This document shows, in pieces, positions 6,838-14,688 of a DNA stretch of 64,000 nt. Location of the stretch: assembly GCF_000685155.1 (NCBI RefSeq), contig NZ_JMIY01000007.1:237041-301040 (forward strand), written 5' to 3'. Source of the DNA: Candidatus Methanoperedens nitratireducens. GTDB taxonomy: Archaea; Halobacteriota; Methanosarcinia; Methanosarcinales; Methanoperedenaceae. Position 1 is the stretch's first letter; each line of letters starts with the position of its first letter. The notes under the pieces are model-generated. The model had not been told where the DNA came from. It made no database searches and worked only from the letters and a program-made list of their open reading frames with translations. The position numbers and the translations under genes are program-made.

Positions 6838-8007
6838 CTAGCTCCACAGCTCTCCACGAAGTATTGATTCTGTTTTATCGTTTGTACTCTTGAATAATTT
6901 TCTTATTTTTACCAGGTATTCATTACCTATTTTCTCGGGTCTCTCGAAGATAGCATCCACACCCAGCAGTCTTAAGTGCTCTTCAAAGTTCTCGACGGTT
7001 CTAAGATCTCTAACCCTTATCTGCACAGTTTCAGTTATTCGCTCCCCTTCTTCTTTCTTTTTGATGGTCTTGATCATAGGGAGTATAATGCTCTCACCGA
7101 GCCTCTGGCACCTCTGGGCAATGCTCTCTTCATCCTCGTCCCACTCCACTGACTGGAATGCCTCCCTGCATACCCTCGGGAAGAAAAAGTCCCTGCCATA
7201 ATCGTTATAGAACTCAAAAGCGTATCTTAAATCAGCGCAGTTGCTCTGAGAGCTTGTGTATTTTACAGGCTGTACCTGCATCTGCGGATCTTTGATGACC
7301 ACCCCTTCATGCTGTAAACTACCTAACCCTTTTATTATCTTCGTAATCTCGATATGCGCTTCATCCACGTCATATTCTCCAAAAAGCCTGACCGATCTTA
7401 TCCCGTACTCATCCATGAGCGCTCTTCGCCTCATAACAGGCATGGGTTTTCCAGTTATCTTCTCCATAATATCAAATACAAAAAACTCAAGTGACTCGAT
7501 ATCGTAGATTGTTTTAGGAACATACGGGCTGTCAGGGCCAACCATCTCACCGCACAGGACAAGATCTGGATGATCCAGAAAGAATTCACGGTTGACTAAC
7601 TCATCCGCCTTCTCTGTCGTATAAGGACACACAAAACCGCCCCGGGTAATCCCTGTGATCCGATCTCCTATAAGCGCCACTCTTGCATTGTAGCCGTTCA
7701 TCTTCTCTTCGACAATAACCTTCTCGCATGAGGAGAAATGGCTTACAACACCGGGATAAAGCACAAGTGTACGCCTTATTTTAGGAAAACCCCGCACTAT
7801 ATCAAAAGGCTCAAGGAATATAGAGGTACCGCCCTCGATACCTGAGATCGGCTTATCAAACCTGAATAACTCAGGGGGTGAAAAAACATATTGTAATGTT
7901 CTTCTCTGTATCGCACCTGCAATCCTGTGCTCAGGTACCTCAAGTAGTCTCGATACTCTCTCAATATCCAGTCTGTTAATAAGTTCAGAGGAGATATCCC
8001 GTTTCAT
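6838..8007 (-). CDS. ATP-dependent RNA ligase, Pab1020/Rnl3 family
   Basis: A 389-residue nucleotidyltransferase. Motif I with the adenylated lysine is IVEEKMNGYNARVALI (about 88-103, KxNG), followed by RITGITRGGF, the HPDLVLCGEMVGPDSPYV block (motifs III/IIIa), EFFVFDI (IIIa) and EGVVIKDPQMQVQPVKYT (motifs IV/V). This archaeal family forms dimers and joins 5'-phosphate to 3'-hydroxyl RNA ends, including intramolecular circularisation. It is the last gene of a six-gene operon; its ATG overlaps the stop of the adjacent four-CBS protein by 4 nt. Coupling to proteins that usually bind adenosine ligands suggests, as inference, control by adenylate state. Its usual partner HARP is encoded at 61718-62413. 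Confidence 0.88.
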   Translation of the reverse strand: MKRDISSELINRLDIERVSRLLEVPEHRIAGAIQRRTLQYVFSPPELFRFDKPISGIEGGTSIFLEPFDIVRGFPKIRRTLVLYPGVVSHFSSCEKVIVEEKMNGYNARVALIGDRITGITRGGFVCPYTTEKADELVNREFFLDHPDLVLCGEMVGPDSPYVPKTIYDIESLEFFVFDIMEKITGKPMPVMRRRALMDEYGIRSVRLFGEYDVDEAHIEITKIIKGLGSLQHEGVVIKDPQMQVQPVKYTSSQSNCADLRYAFEFYNDYGRDFFFPRVCREAFQSVEWDEDEESIAQRCQRLGESIILPMIKTIKKKEEGERITETVQIRVRDLRTVENFEEHLRLLGVDAIFERPEKIGNEYLVKIRKLFKSTNDKTESILRGELWS

Positions 8008-8798
8008 TCTCTTTTAGAGTTCATCAAAGCCAGATGCTTTATAATCCCTCTCCTGCTGATAACACCCACTAACTCATCCCTGAGATTCAAAACAGGTACT
8101 CCACCAATGTTCTCATTCAGAATCAGAGAGACAACATCGGGTATGGGGGTATTTGTTCTAACATATTTCACATCACGGGTCATGATATCCCCTACAATGA
8201 GATTGCGTATCCTCTCAACCTGCTGATTATCAGGTACCAGTGTCCTGAAATGCTTCATTCCTTTTGCAATATCTCTTTCAGTAATGATCCCGACAAGATC
8301 GCCATTCTCGATCACAGGAAGTCTTCCTATATCGTTATCCAGCATTATACGCCTTGCATGTGCTACACGGTCATTAGCACCTACTGTTATAGGTTCATTC
8401 ATTATTTCTGCTGCATAGCCTTTTACAGCACGAATGGTCTTAAGGATCTCATGCGGTGTTACCCAGCCCTGGACCTTACTGTTATCGGTCACAACAACAA
8501 TCCCGCCTGTTCGATCCATCAATGCTATTGCATCTTCCATACTTGTATCAGGGAGTACCTTTGTGAACGCATCTGTGGTTGCAGTTGCAACGTGCAGCGA
8601 GGATGCTGGAAGATTTGATTTCTTCCACGTCCCCAGTTCTCTGGCAATGCTCCTCATCGTAATCACACCCAGAAGCTCGCTTCCGTTGATAACAAGAAGC
8701 CTGCGCGTGTCGAGTTTATCCATCAGTTCCATCGCGTGTGAAATCGTATCTGATTTATGCACCAGAATTGGATCTACCATTATGTTTTTTACTTTCAT
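8004..8798 (-). CDS. Four-CBS-domain protein (operon position 5)
   Basis: 264 residues made of two tandem CBS pairs. The repeats are recognisable by IMVDPILVHKSDTISHAMEL, IMNEPITVGANDRVAHARRI and IMTRDVKYVRTNTPIPDVVS, each followed by a G-IxxR strand-helix unit (GVITMRS, GIITERDIAKG, GVISRRGIIKH). The second CBS unit (about 85-127) is the most diverged. CBS pairs bind adenosine-containing ligands such as AMP, ATP, ADP or SAM and act as sensors. No catalytic domain is fused. It lies 7 bp after the previous CBS gene and overlaps the RNA ligase start by 4 nt, so it is the member most tightly coupled to the ligase. Confidence 0.88.
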   Translation of the reverse strand: MKVKNIMVDPILVHKSDTISHAMELMDKLDTRRLLVINGSELLGVITMRSIARELGTWKKSNLPASSLHVATATTDAFTKVLPDTSMEDAIALMDRTGGIVVVTDNSKVQGWVTPHEILKTIRAVKGYAAEIMNEPITVGANDRVAHARRIMLDNDIGRLPVIENGDLVGIITERDIAKGMKHFRTLVPDNQQVERIRNLIVGDIMTRDVKYVRTNTPIPDVVSLILNENIGGVPVLNLRDELVGVISRRGIIKHLALMNSKRE

Positions 8799-8805
8799 AC
8801 TCTCC

Positions 8806-9654
8806 TCACATTGTCAGTATTGATTTTACAATGCTGTCTCCTGTCAGTATCCTTGTAAGCCCGTTGCCCATCACAGGTAATCCTTTGATTCTCTTCTCTA
8901 TCATTATACGTGCTGCATGTGTTGCAGTATCCTCTTTATCTACAGTGATAAGCGGGCTTGACATTATATCCTCAGCAACCAGAACTACATCTCTTATATA
9001 CCTGTATTTTTTTATTCCTGCATAGGAATCCTTTCTCGCCATTTTTATGTCTTTCTGGGGCAGTGCATCGGTTTTATCCCTCATCTCTGTAAACGTAAGG
9101 TTTGATCTTGTGATTATCCCCACAGGCATTTCATTGTCCTCCATAACAACAGCTCTATCAATTTGATTCGTCTCAAGCTCATGGATTATATGGCTTATCG
9201 TATGGTGCCTGTGAACTGTAAGAGCAGGCTCAAGGTCCATATCCTTTACTTTCAGATCCAGGTCCAGCTCTGAGAAATACCTTATCAGGTCCCATTTTGT
9301 GACTATCCCTGCCAGTCTATTTTTATTATCAATTACAGGCAATCCGCTTATATTATTCTCAATCATCAGTTCTGCAAGCTGCCTGGGGGTTGCATCAGGA
9401 AATATCGTAATCAGGCTCTCTGTCATGACCACTCTGACAGGGATCGCATCGATCGGACGACGGCGCCACTGTGGCTCTGCCTGATCAAGCCTCATGCTGA
9501 TATCTTTCTTGGTCACTATTCCAATGGGACTGTTGTCCTCTATGATCACCAGTCTCCCGATTCTGTGGCGAAGCATCAGATTCCTTGCTCTGGCCACGGT
9601 CTCATTAGACGATACTACGTAAACAGGTGATCGCATTAATTCCTTGATTTTCAT
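8806..9654 (-). CDS. Four-CBS-domain protein (operon position 4)
   Basis: 282 residues of four CBS motifs, starting LMRSPVYVVSSNETVARARN and ending LMSSPLITVDKEDTATHAARI-type units. GIVTKKDIS, GIVTKWDLI and GIITRSNLT mark the ends of successive repeats. There is a short polar insert (LPQKDIKMARKDSYAGIKKY, about 196-215) between CBS3 and CBS4. No membrane segment or catalytic domain is seen. It is separated from its neighbours by 6 and 7 bp and so is clearly co-transcribed with them. The adenosine-ligand sensing role is a family property; the regulated partner is unknown but the operon points to the RNA ligase. Confidence 0.87.
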   Translation of the reverse strand: MKIKELMRSPVYVVSSNETVARARNLMLRHRIGRLVIIEDNSPIGIVTKKDISMRLDQAEPQWRRRPIDAIPVRVVMTESLITIFPDATPRQLAELMIENNISGLPVIDNKNRLAGIVTKWDLIRYFSELDLDLKVKDMDLEPALTVHRHHTISHIIHELETNQIDRAVVMEDNEMPVGIITRSNLTFTEMRDKTDALPQKDIKMARKDSYAGIKKYRYIRDVVLVAEDIMSSPLITVDKEDTATHAARIMIEKRIKGLPVMGNGLTRILTGDSIVKSILTM

Positions 9655-9660
9655 GATCTT

Positions 9661-10614
9661 CTACTCGGCTATTGCCCGAACAAAGTCGCGCTCTGTTATT
9701 ATCCCTCTCAATTCGCCATCCTCCAGTACCGGGAGTGAGCCTACGTTCTTTGAGAGCATAATACCTGCTGCCTCTCCCAGATCAACATCCGATCTTATAG
9801 AAACGATATCCCTTTTTATGAGGGTGCGGACAGGTACCTCGAATACCTCGCTTGCGTTTCCCGTGACAAGTCGGTCGAACATATCGCCGCTGCCAAGAAA
9901 ACGCAGAATATCAGATGCGGTTATTATACCTATAAGTACGTTGTCGCGAATAATAGGAAGCCTCCTGAAACCATTATTTATCATGGATTTAGCTGCAGTC
10001 CCGACAGGCATATCGGGCAGAGCGGTCACCACATTTTTATTCATGTATTCACTTACGGTCTTGCCTGTTATAACACTGGCTATGAGAAAGACAAAATCCC
10101 TCTCTGAAATGATGGCCTTCACCCTGTTATTATCATCAACAATCGGAACTCCCCCCACATTCTCCTTTAACATGGTGTCAAGTACATCTTTAAGCGAATC
10201 CTTCTCATTCAGGCTCACCACGTTCTCTTCCATAATCTCACCTATGCTCCCGTTGATGGCCGCAAGGAGATTTCCATCATATCTTTTCTTTACAATCAGG
10301 TGTCTTAAGCCCCCTCCCAGAAAATCTACGATATCCCGTGAGGTCACTATCCCTTCAAGACGCTTTGTACCTGCATCTGCAACAGGAATCCTCCTGAAAC
10401 CTTTATTCAGCATGGTTTTAACCGCATCTATTATCGGCATTGTAGGAGGGATAGTCACGACTTCCTTTGATGCTATTGTCATTATCTCTCCTGATCTCTG
10501 GGCTATCCTGGTCTTAAACTCAAGAGGCCCGGCATTCCTGACATATGCATCACGGATCTCCTTTAGAGTCCCTGTTGTGAACTTCTGGTTTTTTGCAACA
10601 ATTTGCCTTTTCAT
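9661..10614 (-). CDS. Four-CBS-domain protein with N-terminal extension (operon position 3)
   Basis: 317 residues. A basic N-terminal extension of about 40 residues (MKRQIVAKNQKFTTGTLKEI) precedes four CBS units that start near EIMTIASKEVVTIPPTMPII, EIMEENVVSLNEKDSLKDVL, YMNKNVVTALPDMPVGTAAK and LIKRDIVSIRSDVDLGEAAG. GIVTSRDIVDFLGGG and GIITASDILRFLGSGDMFDR are alike, so CBS1 and CBS3 look like copies, pointing to an internal duplication of a CBS pair. It is the longest of the five proteins. It starts 10 bp after the preceding CBS gene. Confidence 0.87.
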   Translation of the reverse strand: MKRQIVAKNQKFTTGTLKEIRDAYVRNAGPLEFKTRIAQRSGEIMTIASKEVVTIPPTMPIIDAVKTMLNKGFRRIPVADAGTKRLEGIVTSRDIVDFLGGGLRHLIVKKRYDGNLLAAINGSIGEIMEENVVSLNEKDSLKDVLDTMLKENVGGVPIVDDNNRVKAIISERDFVFLIASVITGKTVSEYMNKNVVTALPDMPVGTAAKSMINNGFRRLPIIRDNVLIGIITASDILRFLGSGDMFDRLVTGNASEVFEVPVRTLIKRDIVSIRSDVDLGEAAGIMLSKNVGSLPVLEDGELRGIITERDFVRAIAE

Positions 10615-10624
10615 AAAACACCTT

Positions 10625-11398
10625 TTAAATAAATGCTTTAATTATATCATTTCTATCAACTATACCTGCCAGTTTACCGTTATCGACTACAGAGAGCCTG
10701 CCTATATCAAGCCTCATGAGCGACTGGGTTGCTTCTTTTAAAGTAGCATGCGGAGATATGGTATATGCAGGAGAACTCATGACCTTTTCAACAGGTGGAG
10801 ACATAGTAGATTGAGTCCCATGCTCATCTTCCCTCTCAATCCTTGCATACCCGGCTTTGATAATATTGCGCCTTGTTATCATTCCTACCAGATGATCATC
10901 TTTCAACACAGGAAAACCGGATAGACCTGATTCTCTCATACGCAGCCAGACTCTGGCTATACTGTCCTTTGCAGAGCATGTTTTTACATCTCTGGTCATT
11001 ATTTCTCCTACTTTCCTTTTAGGTATTTTTTCCAGGTCCAGGTTCCTGAAAATATCCGCTGTGCTCAAAATACCAACCAGTGTCTTATCCTGGATGGATC
11101 TTATAACTGGAACGCGCCCCAGACCTTCGTTGATCATCAACCTGGCAGCGTGTATCATATCCATATCTGGATATACCTCAGGGAACCCGGATGCTAAACC
11201 CTCTACAGTAACGTTTGATTTAGTGGAATATATGCCTAATATACCCCTTTCGGTCAGGATTCCGACAACCCTGTTGTTATTATCCACTACAGGCAGGGTA
11301 CGCTTATGCCTGTCCCTGATCACCTGACGCGCATGTGTCATAAAATCAGTGTCACGAATAAAAATAGGATCCCTGGTCATTACCTCTTCCACTTTCAT
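10625..11398 (-). CDS. Four-CBS-domain protein (operon position 2)
   Basis: 257 residues forming two CBS pairs: EVMTRDPIFIRDTDFMTHAR, the diverged GFPEVYPDMDMIHAARLMIN, EIMTRDVKTCSAKDSIARVW and KVMSSPAYTISPHATLKEAT, ending in GIVDRNDIIKAFI. A short linker rich in charged residues (about 185-200) joins CBS3 and CBS4. There is no other domain. The 37-bp gap from the two-CBS/zinc protein upstream is the widest in the cluster but still fits one transcript. The cluster as a whole carries about 18 CBS units in five consecutive genes. Confidence 0.87.
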   Translation of the reverse strand: MKVEEVMTRDPIFIRDTDFMTHARQVIRDRHKRTLPVVDNNNRVVGILTERGILGIYSTKSNVTVEGLASGFPEVYPDMDMIHAARLMINEGLGRVPVIRSIQDKTLVGILSTADIFRNLDLEKIPKRKVGEIMTRDVKTCSAKDSIARVWLRMRESGLSGFPVLKDDHLVGMITRRNIIKAGYARIEREDEHGTQSTMSPPVEKVMSSPAYTISPHATLKEATQSLMRLDIGRLSVVDNGKLAGIVDRNDIIKAFI

Positions 11399-11435
11399 AG
11401 CAAATACTCTTCTATTATGTATATATATGTTCTAT

Positions 11436-11990
11436 CTAGGTAGTCTCTCTACAGTCCTCACAGAGAATTGCCCCGTCAACCAATTTCAGATCAAGCTTAA
11501 AGATTTGGCACCGCTCACAGATGCCCTGCCTGAGACTAAACTGGGAAACTGACTCTGAGGCAATCCTTTCCCTGTGCATTCCGATAAGATCCGAGCATAC
11601 ACTGCCCATCTCTACTGAGGCGGCTATGAGGTCGGTATCTGTTACGATACCAATAAGCCTTGCACCTTCAACAACAGGCAATCGCCGTATCTTCATCTTA
11701 ACCATCTTGAACATGGCATTTGTAACATCCTCAGTAGCAGGTATGGTTATAAGAGGGCTTGTCATCAGCTCTCTTATGGAGATATCATTCGGCAAAATGT
11801 TCTTAGATACGATTTTTCTGACTATATCTCGCTCTGTGACAATCCCTACCGGGCGCTCCCTATCTGTTATTATGATACTGCCAACATCAAGCCCGAGCAT
11901 TTTTATCGCCAGAGCCTGAACATCGCTCTTTATGTCTATCGTTGCGACATCCCTTGTCATTATGTCTCTTACAGGCATCCTGAATTCCAT
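11436..11990 (-). CDS. Two-CBS protein with C-terminal zinc ribbon (operon position 1)
   Basis: 184 residues. One CBS pair (DIMTRDVATIDIKSDVQALA at about 9-28 and ELMTSPLITIPATEDVTNAM near 73-92) is followed by a linker and a C-terminal CxxC...CxxC ribbon (GICERCQIF and GAILCEDCRE, about 151-181) that probably binds zinc. It is the first gene of the operon and the only one of the five with a possible nucleic-acid or protein-binding ribbon. About 180 bp separate it from hemA upstream, enough for the operon promoter. The start could also be M5. Confidence 0.87.
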   Translation of the reverse strand: MEFRMPVRDIMTRDVATIDIKSDVQALAIKMLGLDVGSIIITDRERPVGIVTERDIVRKIVSKNILPNDISIRELMTSPLITIPATEDVTNAMFKMVKMKIRRLPVVEGARLIGIVTDTDLIAASVEMGSVCSDLIGMHRERIASESVSQFSLRQGICERCQIFKLDLKLVDGAILCEDCRETT

Positions 11991-12171
11991 GTGCGTTCCT
12001 CCCTATTGTTTAAGTATGTATTTTGAAGTTTTATATGTTGTGCTTTAATTCAGGTATCTAAGATTATTAAGCTTAAAACAGATATATACTGGAACAGTGG
12101 TTATTAAACTTTATGTAGTTCAGCAATATTATTAATAAAATCGGTGTTATTTTTCAAAATGCCTTAGAGTC

Positions 12172-13443
12172 TCATGGTTTGGAATCAGAGCATTTTTCCC
12201 TCGCACCGTTTAATTTAAATAACTCAGCCACGGTGTCCAGAAATAGCTCATCATCATGCTCTGCCGCATCCCTGAGTATCTTTGTGGGTTCTGCAAGGAT
12301 CTGGTTTGCAAAGGAATGGGTCATGTCATTGAGCACCTCGCACTCGATAGTCCCGATCGTGTGCCGTGCTTTGAGTTTATTTATTGCCTCCTCGCATTCC
12401 TTTTTCCTTATATTCTCAACCGTTGAATAAAGAGCCGAGATGATCCTATCAGCCTGCTGACGCTTGTACTGCTTTTTAAGTAATTCAAGTTCTTCTTCGA
12501 TGAGGAGCTCTGCCTTTTTAGCTTCCTCTTTTCTCCTTGCAATATTTGCTTCGCTTATGCTTTTCAGGCTATCTATGTTATGCAGGCTGATACCGGGGAT
12601 ATCAGCTACACTGCTCTCGACATTTCTGGGATTCCCGATATCTATAAGCATGAGTTCATTTTCCCGATTATCCATTGCCTGGCAGATTATTTCGTGAGTC
12701 AAAATAAAATGCGGCGCCGAAGTAGCACTGATCACCGCATCTGATACCGGAATGTATTTCTCCATCGATTCATATGTTATGGCTTTACCATTTAACTCAC
12801 AGGCCAGAGCCTCAGCCCGCTCAAATGTCCTGTTCGCAACATAGATAACCCTGATATCCTTATTCGCAAGTGCTTTTGCTACAAGCGTTCCCATCTCCCC
12901 GGCACCGATGACCATCATGGTCTTTCCGCTTAATCCTCCAAGGCTCTTCTCAGCAAGTTCCACAGCAGCAGAACCGATTGAGACCGAGCCTTTATTAATC
13001 CCGGTCTCGTTCCTTATGCGTTTTCCAACCTGTATTGATTTATTGAAAGCAGTATCGAGTATCTTTCCGGTAGTGTTCGCTTTTTTTGCAAGTATGTATA
13101 ATTCTTTCACCTGGCCGAGAATCTGGTCTTCTCCAACGATCATGGACTCAAGACCGGATGCGAGTCGCAGAAGATGACGGAGCGATTCATCATGATCAAG
13201 AAAATCAATAATTCTTGAGGAAACTTTCATATGTTTGGCAAATTCAAGAAGTACCTTGCTTCCTTTTGGCGAAACAACATATACCTCAACACGGTTGCAC
13301 GTTTTAAGTACAGCGCACTCCTCGACAAGTGGATGCGATTTAAGACGCATCAAAAGCTGGTCAACACCGCCATGCCATGCGGTTTCCATCTCCTCTATGG
13401 TCGCTTTGGTATGCGTGATAAGCATGCTTGATATCTCAGACAT
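12172..13443 (-). CDS. hemA: Glutamyl-tRNA reductase
   Basis: 423 residues. It reduces glutamyl-tRNA(Glu) with NADPH to glutamate-1-semialdehyde, the first step of tetrapyrrole synthesis. The catalytic cysteine is C49 in VLKTCNRVEVYV. The LRHLLRLASGLESMIVGEDQ block, the GINKGSVSIGSAAVELAEKS block and the nucleotide-binding VIGAGEMGTLVAKAL follow in the expected order. The C-terminal dimerisation helices carry many charged residues (EEAKKAELLIEEELELLKKQ). Length is normal. It is the last gene of a three-gene siroheme/heme operon, overlapping the preceding gene by 8 nt. Confidence 0.95.
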   Translation of the reverse strand: MSEISSMLITHTKATIEEMETAWHGGVDQLLMRLKSHPLVEECAVLKTCNRVEVYVVSPKGSKVLLEFAKHMKVSSRIIDFLDHDESLRHLLRLASGLESMIVGEDQILGQVKELYILAKKANTTGKILDTAFNKSIQVGKRIRNETGINKGSVSIGSAAVELAEKSLGGLSGKTMMVIGAGEMGTLVAKALANKDIRVIYVANRTFERAEALACELNGKAITYESMEKYIPVSDAVISATSAPHFILTHEIICQAMDNRENELMLIDIGNPRNVESSVADIPGISLHNIDSLKSISEANIARRKEEAKKAELLIEEELELLKKQYKRQQADRIISALYSTVENIRKKECEEAINKLKARHTIGTIECEVLNDMTHSFANQILAEPTKILRDAAEHDDELFLDTVAELFKLNGAREKCSDSKP

Positions 13444-14089
13444 TATGCTCTCCTATCTCTAGATGTTTTAGAGCTACTTTATATGCCTTTTCATATGATT
13501 CTCCAATAGCAGTCCATACCTCATTATCATTGATGACACTCCACAGTATTTCTTTGCGTTTTGTCTGATCTTCTACCTTTGATTTCAGTATTTTGCGAAG
13601 ATCATTCTGAAGCCGTGACATCTGTGCAAACTCAGGTGTAATGACTTCCTCGATTCTCTTGCGGATATATTTTGAGATAGCAGGACTCTGGCCAAGAGTT
13701 GAGATCCCGATCACAATATCCCCCCTTCTGATGACCGATGGTATAATAATATCCCCCAGGTCATCTACTCTGTTAACAAGTATTCCTCTCCTGTCTGCCA
13801 GACTGGCGATTTTCTCATTCAGGAGAGCATTGTTTGTAGCCGGGATTATAATAAAAGCATTTTTCATGTACTGTAGCATCTCTTTTTCAGAGATGTCTTC
13901 TACCTTAATAGTTTTTATTTTTTTTCTCTCAGACAACTGACCCAGCAGAGGTGTGAAATCTCTGCTTATAACAACCACCCGGGCGCAATCGCAGAAGAGC
14001 GAGGCCTTACGTTCACCAACTTCGCCGCCTCCAAAGATGACCACCTCTTTTCCTGCAAGATCAAGCATAAGGGGAAGAAAATTCCTCAT
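13436..14089 (-). CDS. Precorrin-2 dehydrogenase / sirohydrochlorin ferrochelatase-like protein
   Basis: 217 residues of the Met8p / CysG N-terminal type: LPLMLDLAGKEVVIFGGGEV (NAD-binding GGGEVGERKA at about 20-29), then RVVVISRDFTPLLGQL, FIIIPATNNALLNEKIASLA and GDIIIPSVIRRGDIVIGIST with LGQSPAISKYIRKRIEEVI. It oxidises precorrin-2 to sirohydrochlorin; iron insertion by the same protein is possible but not shown by the sequence. It sits between the siroheme decarboxylase-type gene and hemA with overlaps on both sides (4 and 8 nt), consistent with siroheme supply for heme b and heme c by the archaeal Ahb route. Confidence 0.9.
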   Translation of the reverse strand: MRNFLPLMLDLAGKEVVIFGGGEVGERKASLFCDCARVVVISRDFTPLLGQLSERKKIKTIKVEDISEKEMLQYMKNAFIIIPATNNALLNEKIASLADRRGILVNRVDDLGDIIIPSVIRRGDIVIGISTLGQSPAISKYIRKRIEEVITPEFAQMSRLQNDLRKILKSKVEDQTKRKEILWSVINDNEVWTAIGESYEKAYKVALKHLEIGEHNV

Positions 14090-14544
14090 AACCTTACACC
14101 GGTTTTCTTAAATTCCCTCTCGCTGAAGAGTATGCTGTAATCCTTAATACCCGTGGCAATAGAGATCTCTTTTGCTGTTCTTTCGCATTCATCACGCGAA
14201 TAGGCATGGATCATGGTAAAGAGGTTGTACTTCCAGTCAGGGAAACGGGGGCGCTCATAACAATGTGTTACTTCTGGAAAGCCTGCCATTATTGCTCCGA
14301 CTTCTTCTACCCGCTCATCAGGGACGTTCCATGTGCACATGGCATTTGCAGTTATTCCGATAGCCCTGTGGCCGATAGATGCACCAAAGCGCCTGACCAC
14401 TCCTTCTCTAATCAGATTTTCCAGCCGGTTCAGAACTTCATCCTCTGAGATCCCTAGTTCCATTGCTATTCCTCTAAACGGCTCAGCGATTATCGGGAGC
14501 CCATTCTGGGTTAATTTCAACAGGCGTATATCAATCTCATCCAT
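14086..14544 (-). CDS. Siroheme decarboxylase subunit (AhbA/AhbB, Lrp/AsnC-like)
   Basis: 152 residues from ATG at 14544, starting MDEIDIRLLKLTQNGLP. It has an N-terminal winged-helix half and a C-terminal half with VVRRFGASIGHRAIGITANA, CYERPRFPDWKYNLFTMIHA and the final ILFSEREFKKTGVRL, typical of AhbA/AhbB. These convert siroheme to 12,18-didecarboxysiroheme in the alternative heme pathway; which subunit this is cannot be settled here. The longer frame to 14628 would add residues without family similarity, and a TATA box at 14577-14586 lies inside it, so the shorter start is preferred. It is the first gene of the operon; its stop overlaps the next start by 4 nt. Confidence 0.88.
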   Translation of the reverse strand: MDEIDIRLLKLTQNGLPIIAEPFRGIAMELGISEDEVLNRLENLIREGVVRRFGASIGHRAIGITANAMCTWNVPDERVEEVGAIMAGFPEVTHCYERPRFPDWKYNLFTMIHAYSRDECERTAKEISIATGIKDYSILFSEREFKKTGVRL

Positions 14545-14576
14545 ATTACCAGATATGTTTACTAGATAGATATACA

Positions 14577-14586
14577 TATTATAAAT
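14577..14586 (-). promoter_or_regulatory. TATA box of the heme operon
   Basis: TTTATAATAT on the minus strand lies about 33-42 nt upstream of the ATG at 14544. Archaeal TATA boxes sit about 25 nt before the transcription start, so the transcript would start only about 10 nt before this ATG. This supports the short start of the decarboxylase gene. No BRE was examined beyond the A/T-rich surroundings. Confidence 0.5.
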
Positions 14587-14688
14587 TAGTATGGTAAATG
14601 TGAACACAGGAATATCTGACGTTTGCACACAACACTCAGCCAGATTAAAAACTCAAAAACGCATTTTGGCGGGCATTTCAATATATTA

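Follow-up and report, generated by a model that had tools for sequence, protein, structure and literature searches.

A six-gene archaeal operon that links CBS modules of ribosome-bound type to an Rnl3 RNA ligase: a probable ribosome-dormancy operon in Candidatus Methanoperedens nitratireducens

The subject of this analysis is a six-gene operon of Candidatus Methanoperedens nitratireducens in which five genes for proteins built from CBS domains are followed by a gene for a predicted RNA ligase. The operon lies in a stretch of 64,000 nucleotides (contig NZ_JMIY01000007.1, positions 237,041 to 301,040), which we call the window and whose own numbering is used for all coordinates. The six genes are on the minus strand and encode, in the order of reading, ZnC, a protein of 184 amino acids (aa) with two CBS domains and a C-terminal zinc ribbon (11990-11436); a CM-5-type CBS module of 257 aa (11398-10625); a CM-4-type module of 317 aa (10614-9661); a CM-1-type module of 282 aa with a conserved WRRRPI linker (9654-8806); a CM-2-type module of 264 aa (8798-8004); and an ATP-dependent RNA ligase of the Rnl3 (Pab1020/MthRnl) type of 389 aa (8007-6838). 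The gaps between the open reading frames are 37, 10, 6 and 7 bp, and the last junction, between the CM-2 and ligase genes, is a 4-nt ATGA overlap. Pfam finds CBS domains and nothing else in the first five proteins (2+4+4+4+4 = 18); the whole 3.2-Mb genome encodes 48 CBS domains, these included. An earlier reading of the window from its letters alone (the original prediction) had given exactly these gaps, about 18 CBS units and no catalytic domain among the five. The arrangement is not due to chance, because the identical gene order recurs in several archaeal groups.

Each of the four proteins with four CBS domains matched, over its full length, a chain of a ribosome entry in a search of the Protein Data Bank (PDB). 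The CM-5-type protein matched chain 4 of 9znf (E 5e-71) and was the best of the four against the CBS module of HibA (E 4.6e-19); the CM-4-type protein matched chain 5 of the same entry (E 2e-95) as well as MJ1225 (3kh5; E 3e-64); the CM-1-type protein matched chain 6 of 9zni (E 1e-76) and the C-terminal half of Dri (9e6q chain 3, 332-583; E 1e-15); and the CM-2-type protein matched chain 7 of 9zng (E 3e-92), with chain 7 of 9zni also matching. These three entries are taken as ribosomes of Methanosarcina acetivorans because the PDB sequence closest to the genome's own uL4 is common to them and to 9nri, 9nta, 9o17 and 9ou7, which are M. acetivorans ribosomes (PMC12605026). The chain sequences were rebuilt from alignments, and 9znf, 9zng and 9zni are known here by their sequences. 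Their CBS chains are 100% identical to the products of four consecutive genes of the M. acetivorans operon, where the same CBS order is followed by one inserted gene and then by the ligase gene, and the window proteins share 46-58% identity with them. The CM-5 and CM-4 types occur together in one entry and the CM-1 and CM-2 types in another. The CM numbers were assigned by gene order and best matches (HibA for CM-5, the C-terminal half of Dri for CM-1, MJ1225 for CM-4) and not by the profile models of PMC13324472. With four tandem CBS domains each, no catalytic domain, orthology to the chains and the order 5-4-1-2, the four genes correspond to the CM-5/4/1/2 cluster. The orthology of the four proteins to the M. 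acetivorans ribosome chains is strongly supported by these comparisons, and ribosome binding by the proteins of the window itself is very probable. An IMPDH-like identity was rejected, since only CBS domains and no catalytic barrel are present and TIGR01302 scores far under its cut-off; a metabolic regulator like AMPK-gamma or IMPDH was rejected as well, since the structures that best match the four large proteins are ribosome-bound chains.

The CBS part of the operon is already known in relatives. A 2026 paper describes HibA together with stand-alone CBS modules, which fall into six families (CM-1 to CM-6), reports the CM-5/4/1/2 gene cluster and links the stand-alone modules to ribosome hibernation (PMC13324472). 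It refers to dormant M. acetivorans ribosomes that contain CM-1 and CM-4, and regards the role of CM-2 as unresolved (PMC13324472). When ribosomes are idle, according to published work on relatives, CBS modules fill their tRNA, mRNA and peptidyl-transferase sites. The CM-2 orthologue in 9zng and 9zni is sequence evidence for CM-2 in ribosome structures. Both HibA and Dri, which are related to the window modules, are hibernation factors (PMC13324472). HibA of P. abyssi (9sr9) carries a four-CBS ribosome-binding module nearest to the CM-5-type protein, and differs by its C-terminal HPF/RaiA domain, which Pfam finds in none of the window's five CBS proteins; PF02482 had no match in the window genome at E 0.5, with a model that scores HibA-like proteins weakly. 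Dri of Pyrobaculum calidifontis, matched in its C-terminal half by the CM-1-type protein, is two modules fused in one protein, whereas the window modules are separate genes. The 2026 paper reports that the HibA module binds AMP with a Kd of 12 uM, that neither AMP nor ATP clearly alters its attachment to ribosomes, and that HibA and the CM-5/4/1/2 cluster exclude each other (PMC13324472). We found HibA-like proteins (CBS domains plus a weak C-terminal HPF match) in Archaeoglobi and one other family, at six loci, and the ligase loci of genomes with such proteins were without CM-5, CM-1 and CM-2. Compared with the published cluster, which has the same four consecutive genes in the same order, the window operon adds a CBS-zinc-ribbon protein and an Rnl3 ligase. 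The words 'ligase' and 'zinc' do not occur in the main text of PMC13324472, and no description of the link of the CBS genes with the ligase or with ZnC was found in the literature searched, which excludes most subscription papers as well as papers on 9znf, 9zng and 9zni. Both appear to be new as members of the operon.

The last gene is predicted to encode an Rnl3 RNA ligase, in agreement with the circularising type that had been proposed for it. Its product scores 394 bits against TIGR01209, whose cut-off is 137, matches RNA_ligase (PF09414) and the Pab1020 C-terminal region (PF18330, 147 bits), and is the sole protein of its type encoded in the genome. Motifs I to V are intact, as EEK(102)MNGYN, TRGG, FVFDI, EGVV and K(249)YTS, with Lys102 in motif I and Lys249 in motif V. 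The closest characterized proteins are MthRnl (5d1o; E 1e-99) and Pab1020 (2vug; E 2e-55), which have the same domains, motifs and C-terminal dimerisation region; the genomic tie to ribosome-binding CBS modules is a difference, as we did not find it described in the literature on these two enzymes. Both are homodimers, and MthRnl is active alone (PMC3514331). MthRnl is for the most part self-adenylated when purified, and ATP inhibits the sealing step of this enzyme from 50 uM (PMC3514331), so that it might seal best at low ATP, which fits the dormancy reading given below. In four species of one genus the ligase genes share an in-frame TAG at one codon (GTVV*Q), and further genomes of the genus were flagged with one TAG in this gene; it is a candidate pyrrolysine residue or shared readthrough.

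A survey of gene order around Pab1020-family ligases showed that 120 of 142 distinct ligase loci have a same-strand gene for a CBS module upstream of the ligase, within 1.6 kb at 119 of them and within 200 bp at 107. The full order ZnC-CM5-CM4-CM1-CM2-LIG is present at 80 loci, the other linked loci are ordered subsets of it, and a permuted order was never seen. CM-2 is the nearest upstream CBS gene of the ligase at 109 of the 120 linked loci, and overlaps of 4 nt occur at 38 loci. The 22 unlinked loci include two that are cut by contig ends. The linked set comprises Methanosarcinia, a metagenome-assembled genome of Methanocellales, Mnemosynella, Archaeoglobus (with ZnC-CM4-LIG only), Hydrothermarchaeota and Methanobacteriaceae, so that the conserved neighbourhood proposed in the original prediction does extend well past close relatives. 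Among 115 sampled Methanobacteriota genomes CM-2 is found in 109 and the ligase in 20, and by coordinates all 20 ligases are beside CM-2. On the ligase tree the linked and unlinked states are explained by 4 changes, whereas shuffled labels need 13.3, and the link thus behaves like an ancient trait maintained by vertical descent. It is not obligatory, because each part also occurs without the other.

Some features of these loci vary between lineages. Eight Methanosarcina-type loci have an opposite-strand gene between CM-2 and the ligase, which in the M. acetivorans operon belongs to the AIM24 family (PF01987). Upstream of ZnC or of the cluster, a divergent gene for an Era-like GTPase, together with OapB and OapC genes, is found in several lineages. 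Methanosarcinaceae loci have a gene of 345-360 aa after the ligase, one copy of which matches EF-Tu GTPase and domain-2 models. A universal partner downstream of the ligase was rejected, as different clades have different genes at this position (EF-Tu-like GTPase, ArgZ-like, DHH nuclease).

At its C-terminus ZnC, the first CBS protein, carries a CxxC...CxxC zinc ribbon that had gone unnoticed in the original prediction; the four cysteines and a flanking Gly are invariant in 19 of 19 homologues. The AlphaFold (AF2) model of ZnC has a mean predicted local distance difference test score (pLDDT) of 84.9 and a predicted template-modelling score (pTM) of 0.65, and Foldseek matches it over its full length to Ta0289 (1pvm/2qh1), a CBS-rubredoxin-like protein in which a four-cysteine ribbon likewise follows two CBS domains, at about 23% identity across the fold match. 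Ta0289 is not known to belong to a CBS-ligase operon of this kind. ZnC probably acts as an additional sensor or adaptor. Candidate T/D nucleotide-site residues, at which adenylates might bind, are kept in some CBS domains of ZnC and CM-1.

Our reading of these results is that the genes probably form a ribosome-dormancy operon in which the ligase serves as an RNA-maintenance arm. In such an operon CM-5, CM-4, CM-1 and CM-2 would bind idle ribosomes, block their translation sites and protect them at low energy, perhaps acting as the pairs CM-5/CM-4 and CM-1/CM-2 in which the PDB entries group them. Adenylates would be the likely signal, and the zinc-ribbon protein would sense or recruit. Rnl3, a type of ligase that joins 5'-phosphate to 3'-OH ends, would seal or circularise RNA in cells that are dormant or recovering, its substrate being rRNA, rRNA fragments or by-products of processing. 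That the ligase acts on the RNA of dormant or recovering ribosomes we put at somewhat below an even chance. A more specific proposal, which we offer tentatively and with more doubt, is that dormancy carries its own RNA-repair enzyme: Rnl3, charged with AMP in advance and able to work at low ATP, would mend or circularise the rRNA of ribosomes that the CBS proteins have silenced, or RNA associated with these ribosomes.

Several observations weigh against the dormancy reading. Across 296 Halobacteriota genomes CM-2 is found in 140 and a ligase above the cut-off in 125, with both in 67. Genome-level co-occurrence was rejected as proof of the link, as it is weak, either part being often alone; the evidence for the link rests on adjacency and order. 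CM-2 is present while the ligase is absent in 89 of the 115 Methanobacteriota genomes; the complete CBS cluster occurs without a ligase in Methanomicrobia-type genomes; one ligase-free family keeps at least CM4-CM1-CM2; and haloarchaea and Methanococci have the ligase without an adjoining CBS cluster. Searching PDB sequences for the M. acetivorans ribosome entries, we found no orthologue of either the ligase or ZnC among their chains. Archaeoglobi keep ZnC-CM4-LIG despite having HibA-like proteins, which may mean that the role of the trio goes beyond hibernation and hints at a closer tie inside it. At three ligase-free loci the genes after the CBS cluster encode proteins of 327, 149 and about 182 aa, which at one of these loci are deoxyhypusine synthase, rpS13 and rpS4. 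A substitute RNA ligase in ligase-free clusters was rejected, since Pfam assigns five downstream genes to deoxyhypusine synthase, rpS13, rpS4, a sensor kinase and a transporter.

The survival of the CBS cluster and the ligase each on its own also favours an explanation in which the genes are co-transcribed merely through a shared growth phase or old inheritance, and the ligase performs general RNA circularisation (box C/D small RNAs, tRNA introns, 5S). The AIM24 gene tolerated between CM-2 and the ligase in Methanosarcina and the lack of a ligase orthologue among the ribosome entry chains agree with it. We nevertheless consider it unlikely, given that adjacency and order are kept over several deep clades, with overlapping genes at many loci, that every ligase in the Methanobacteriota sample is still beside CM-2, and that the ligase tree needs far fewer label changes than shuffled labels do. 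The original prediction had instead proposed a complex of the CBS proteins that senses adenylates and controls RNA ligation or circularisation, a model weighed here as a direct switching of the ligase in response to AMP/ATP. Conserved adjacency, the canonical T/D residues in some CBS domains of ZnC and CM-1, the use of ATP by the ligase and the minimal ZnC-CM4-LIG set of Archaeoglobi are all in keeping with that model, but four of the five CBS proteins have ribosome-bound orthologues, many ligase-free genomes keep the CBS set, and the related ligases are homodimers, of which MthRnl needs no partner for activity, so that we find it quite improbable. Because the cluster persists in many ligase-free archaea, control of the ligase is not its main job; our sequence-based analysis found nothing that shows physical contact of the ligase with the CBS proteins, and an indirect link between them through the energy state is possible. 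The neighbourhood part of the prediction thus stands, and its control-of-ligation model gives way to the ribosome-dormancy operon.

A role in ribosome biogenesis, with the CBS modules bound to ribosome precursors and the ligase closing circular pre-rRNA or excised spacer RNAs, appears less probable still. Archaea commonly contain circular RNAs that stem from rRNA (circular pre-16S, pre-23S, 5S and small rRNA circles; PMC12558985), including species that have an Rnl3 ligase, whose presence was checked in some species only, and ligase-free CBS clusters can adjoin the deoxyhypusine synthase, rpS13 and rpS4 genes. However, circular pre-rRNA is made through the bulge-helix-bulge motif (BHB) and EndA, followed by RtcB or another ligase (PMC12558985), and the related modules HibA and Dri are factors of hibernation (PMC13324472).

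Upstream of the operon, the 181-bp gap after hemA (11991-12171, minus strand) is a possible promoter region; inspected by eye, it contains a Shine-Dalgarno-like AGGGAGG and the TATA-like ACATATAAAA. Directly beyond it, at 12172-14628 on the minus strand, are tetrapyrrole genes (glutamyl-tRNA reductase, with siroheme-synthase-type-like and Lrp-type-like genes), which show no sign of membership in the CBS-ligase operon. An Rfam search of the window matched no structured RNA. Antisense to the CM-4 gene there is a TTG-start open frame of 365 aa (9644-10741, plus strand), most likely a shadow frame and not a gene. Elsewhere in the window genome (G000:C1:628000-638000) an RtcB ligase and an archease-like gene adjoin grpE-dnaK-dnaJ and are divergent from genes for two 2-CBS proteins, which makes this a second RNA ligase near CBS genes.

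Archaeal ribosome hibernation has been recognised only recently, and Rnl3 is a well-known laboratory enzyme whose physiological role is unsettled. An old operon that joins dormancy factors to Rnl3 offers a concrete place to look for that role, and ZnC is a candidate new component of the dormancy operon. If the proposal is true, Rnl3 would gain a physiological role as the RNA-repair enzyme of sleeping ribosomes.

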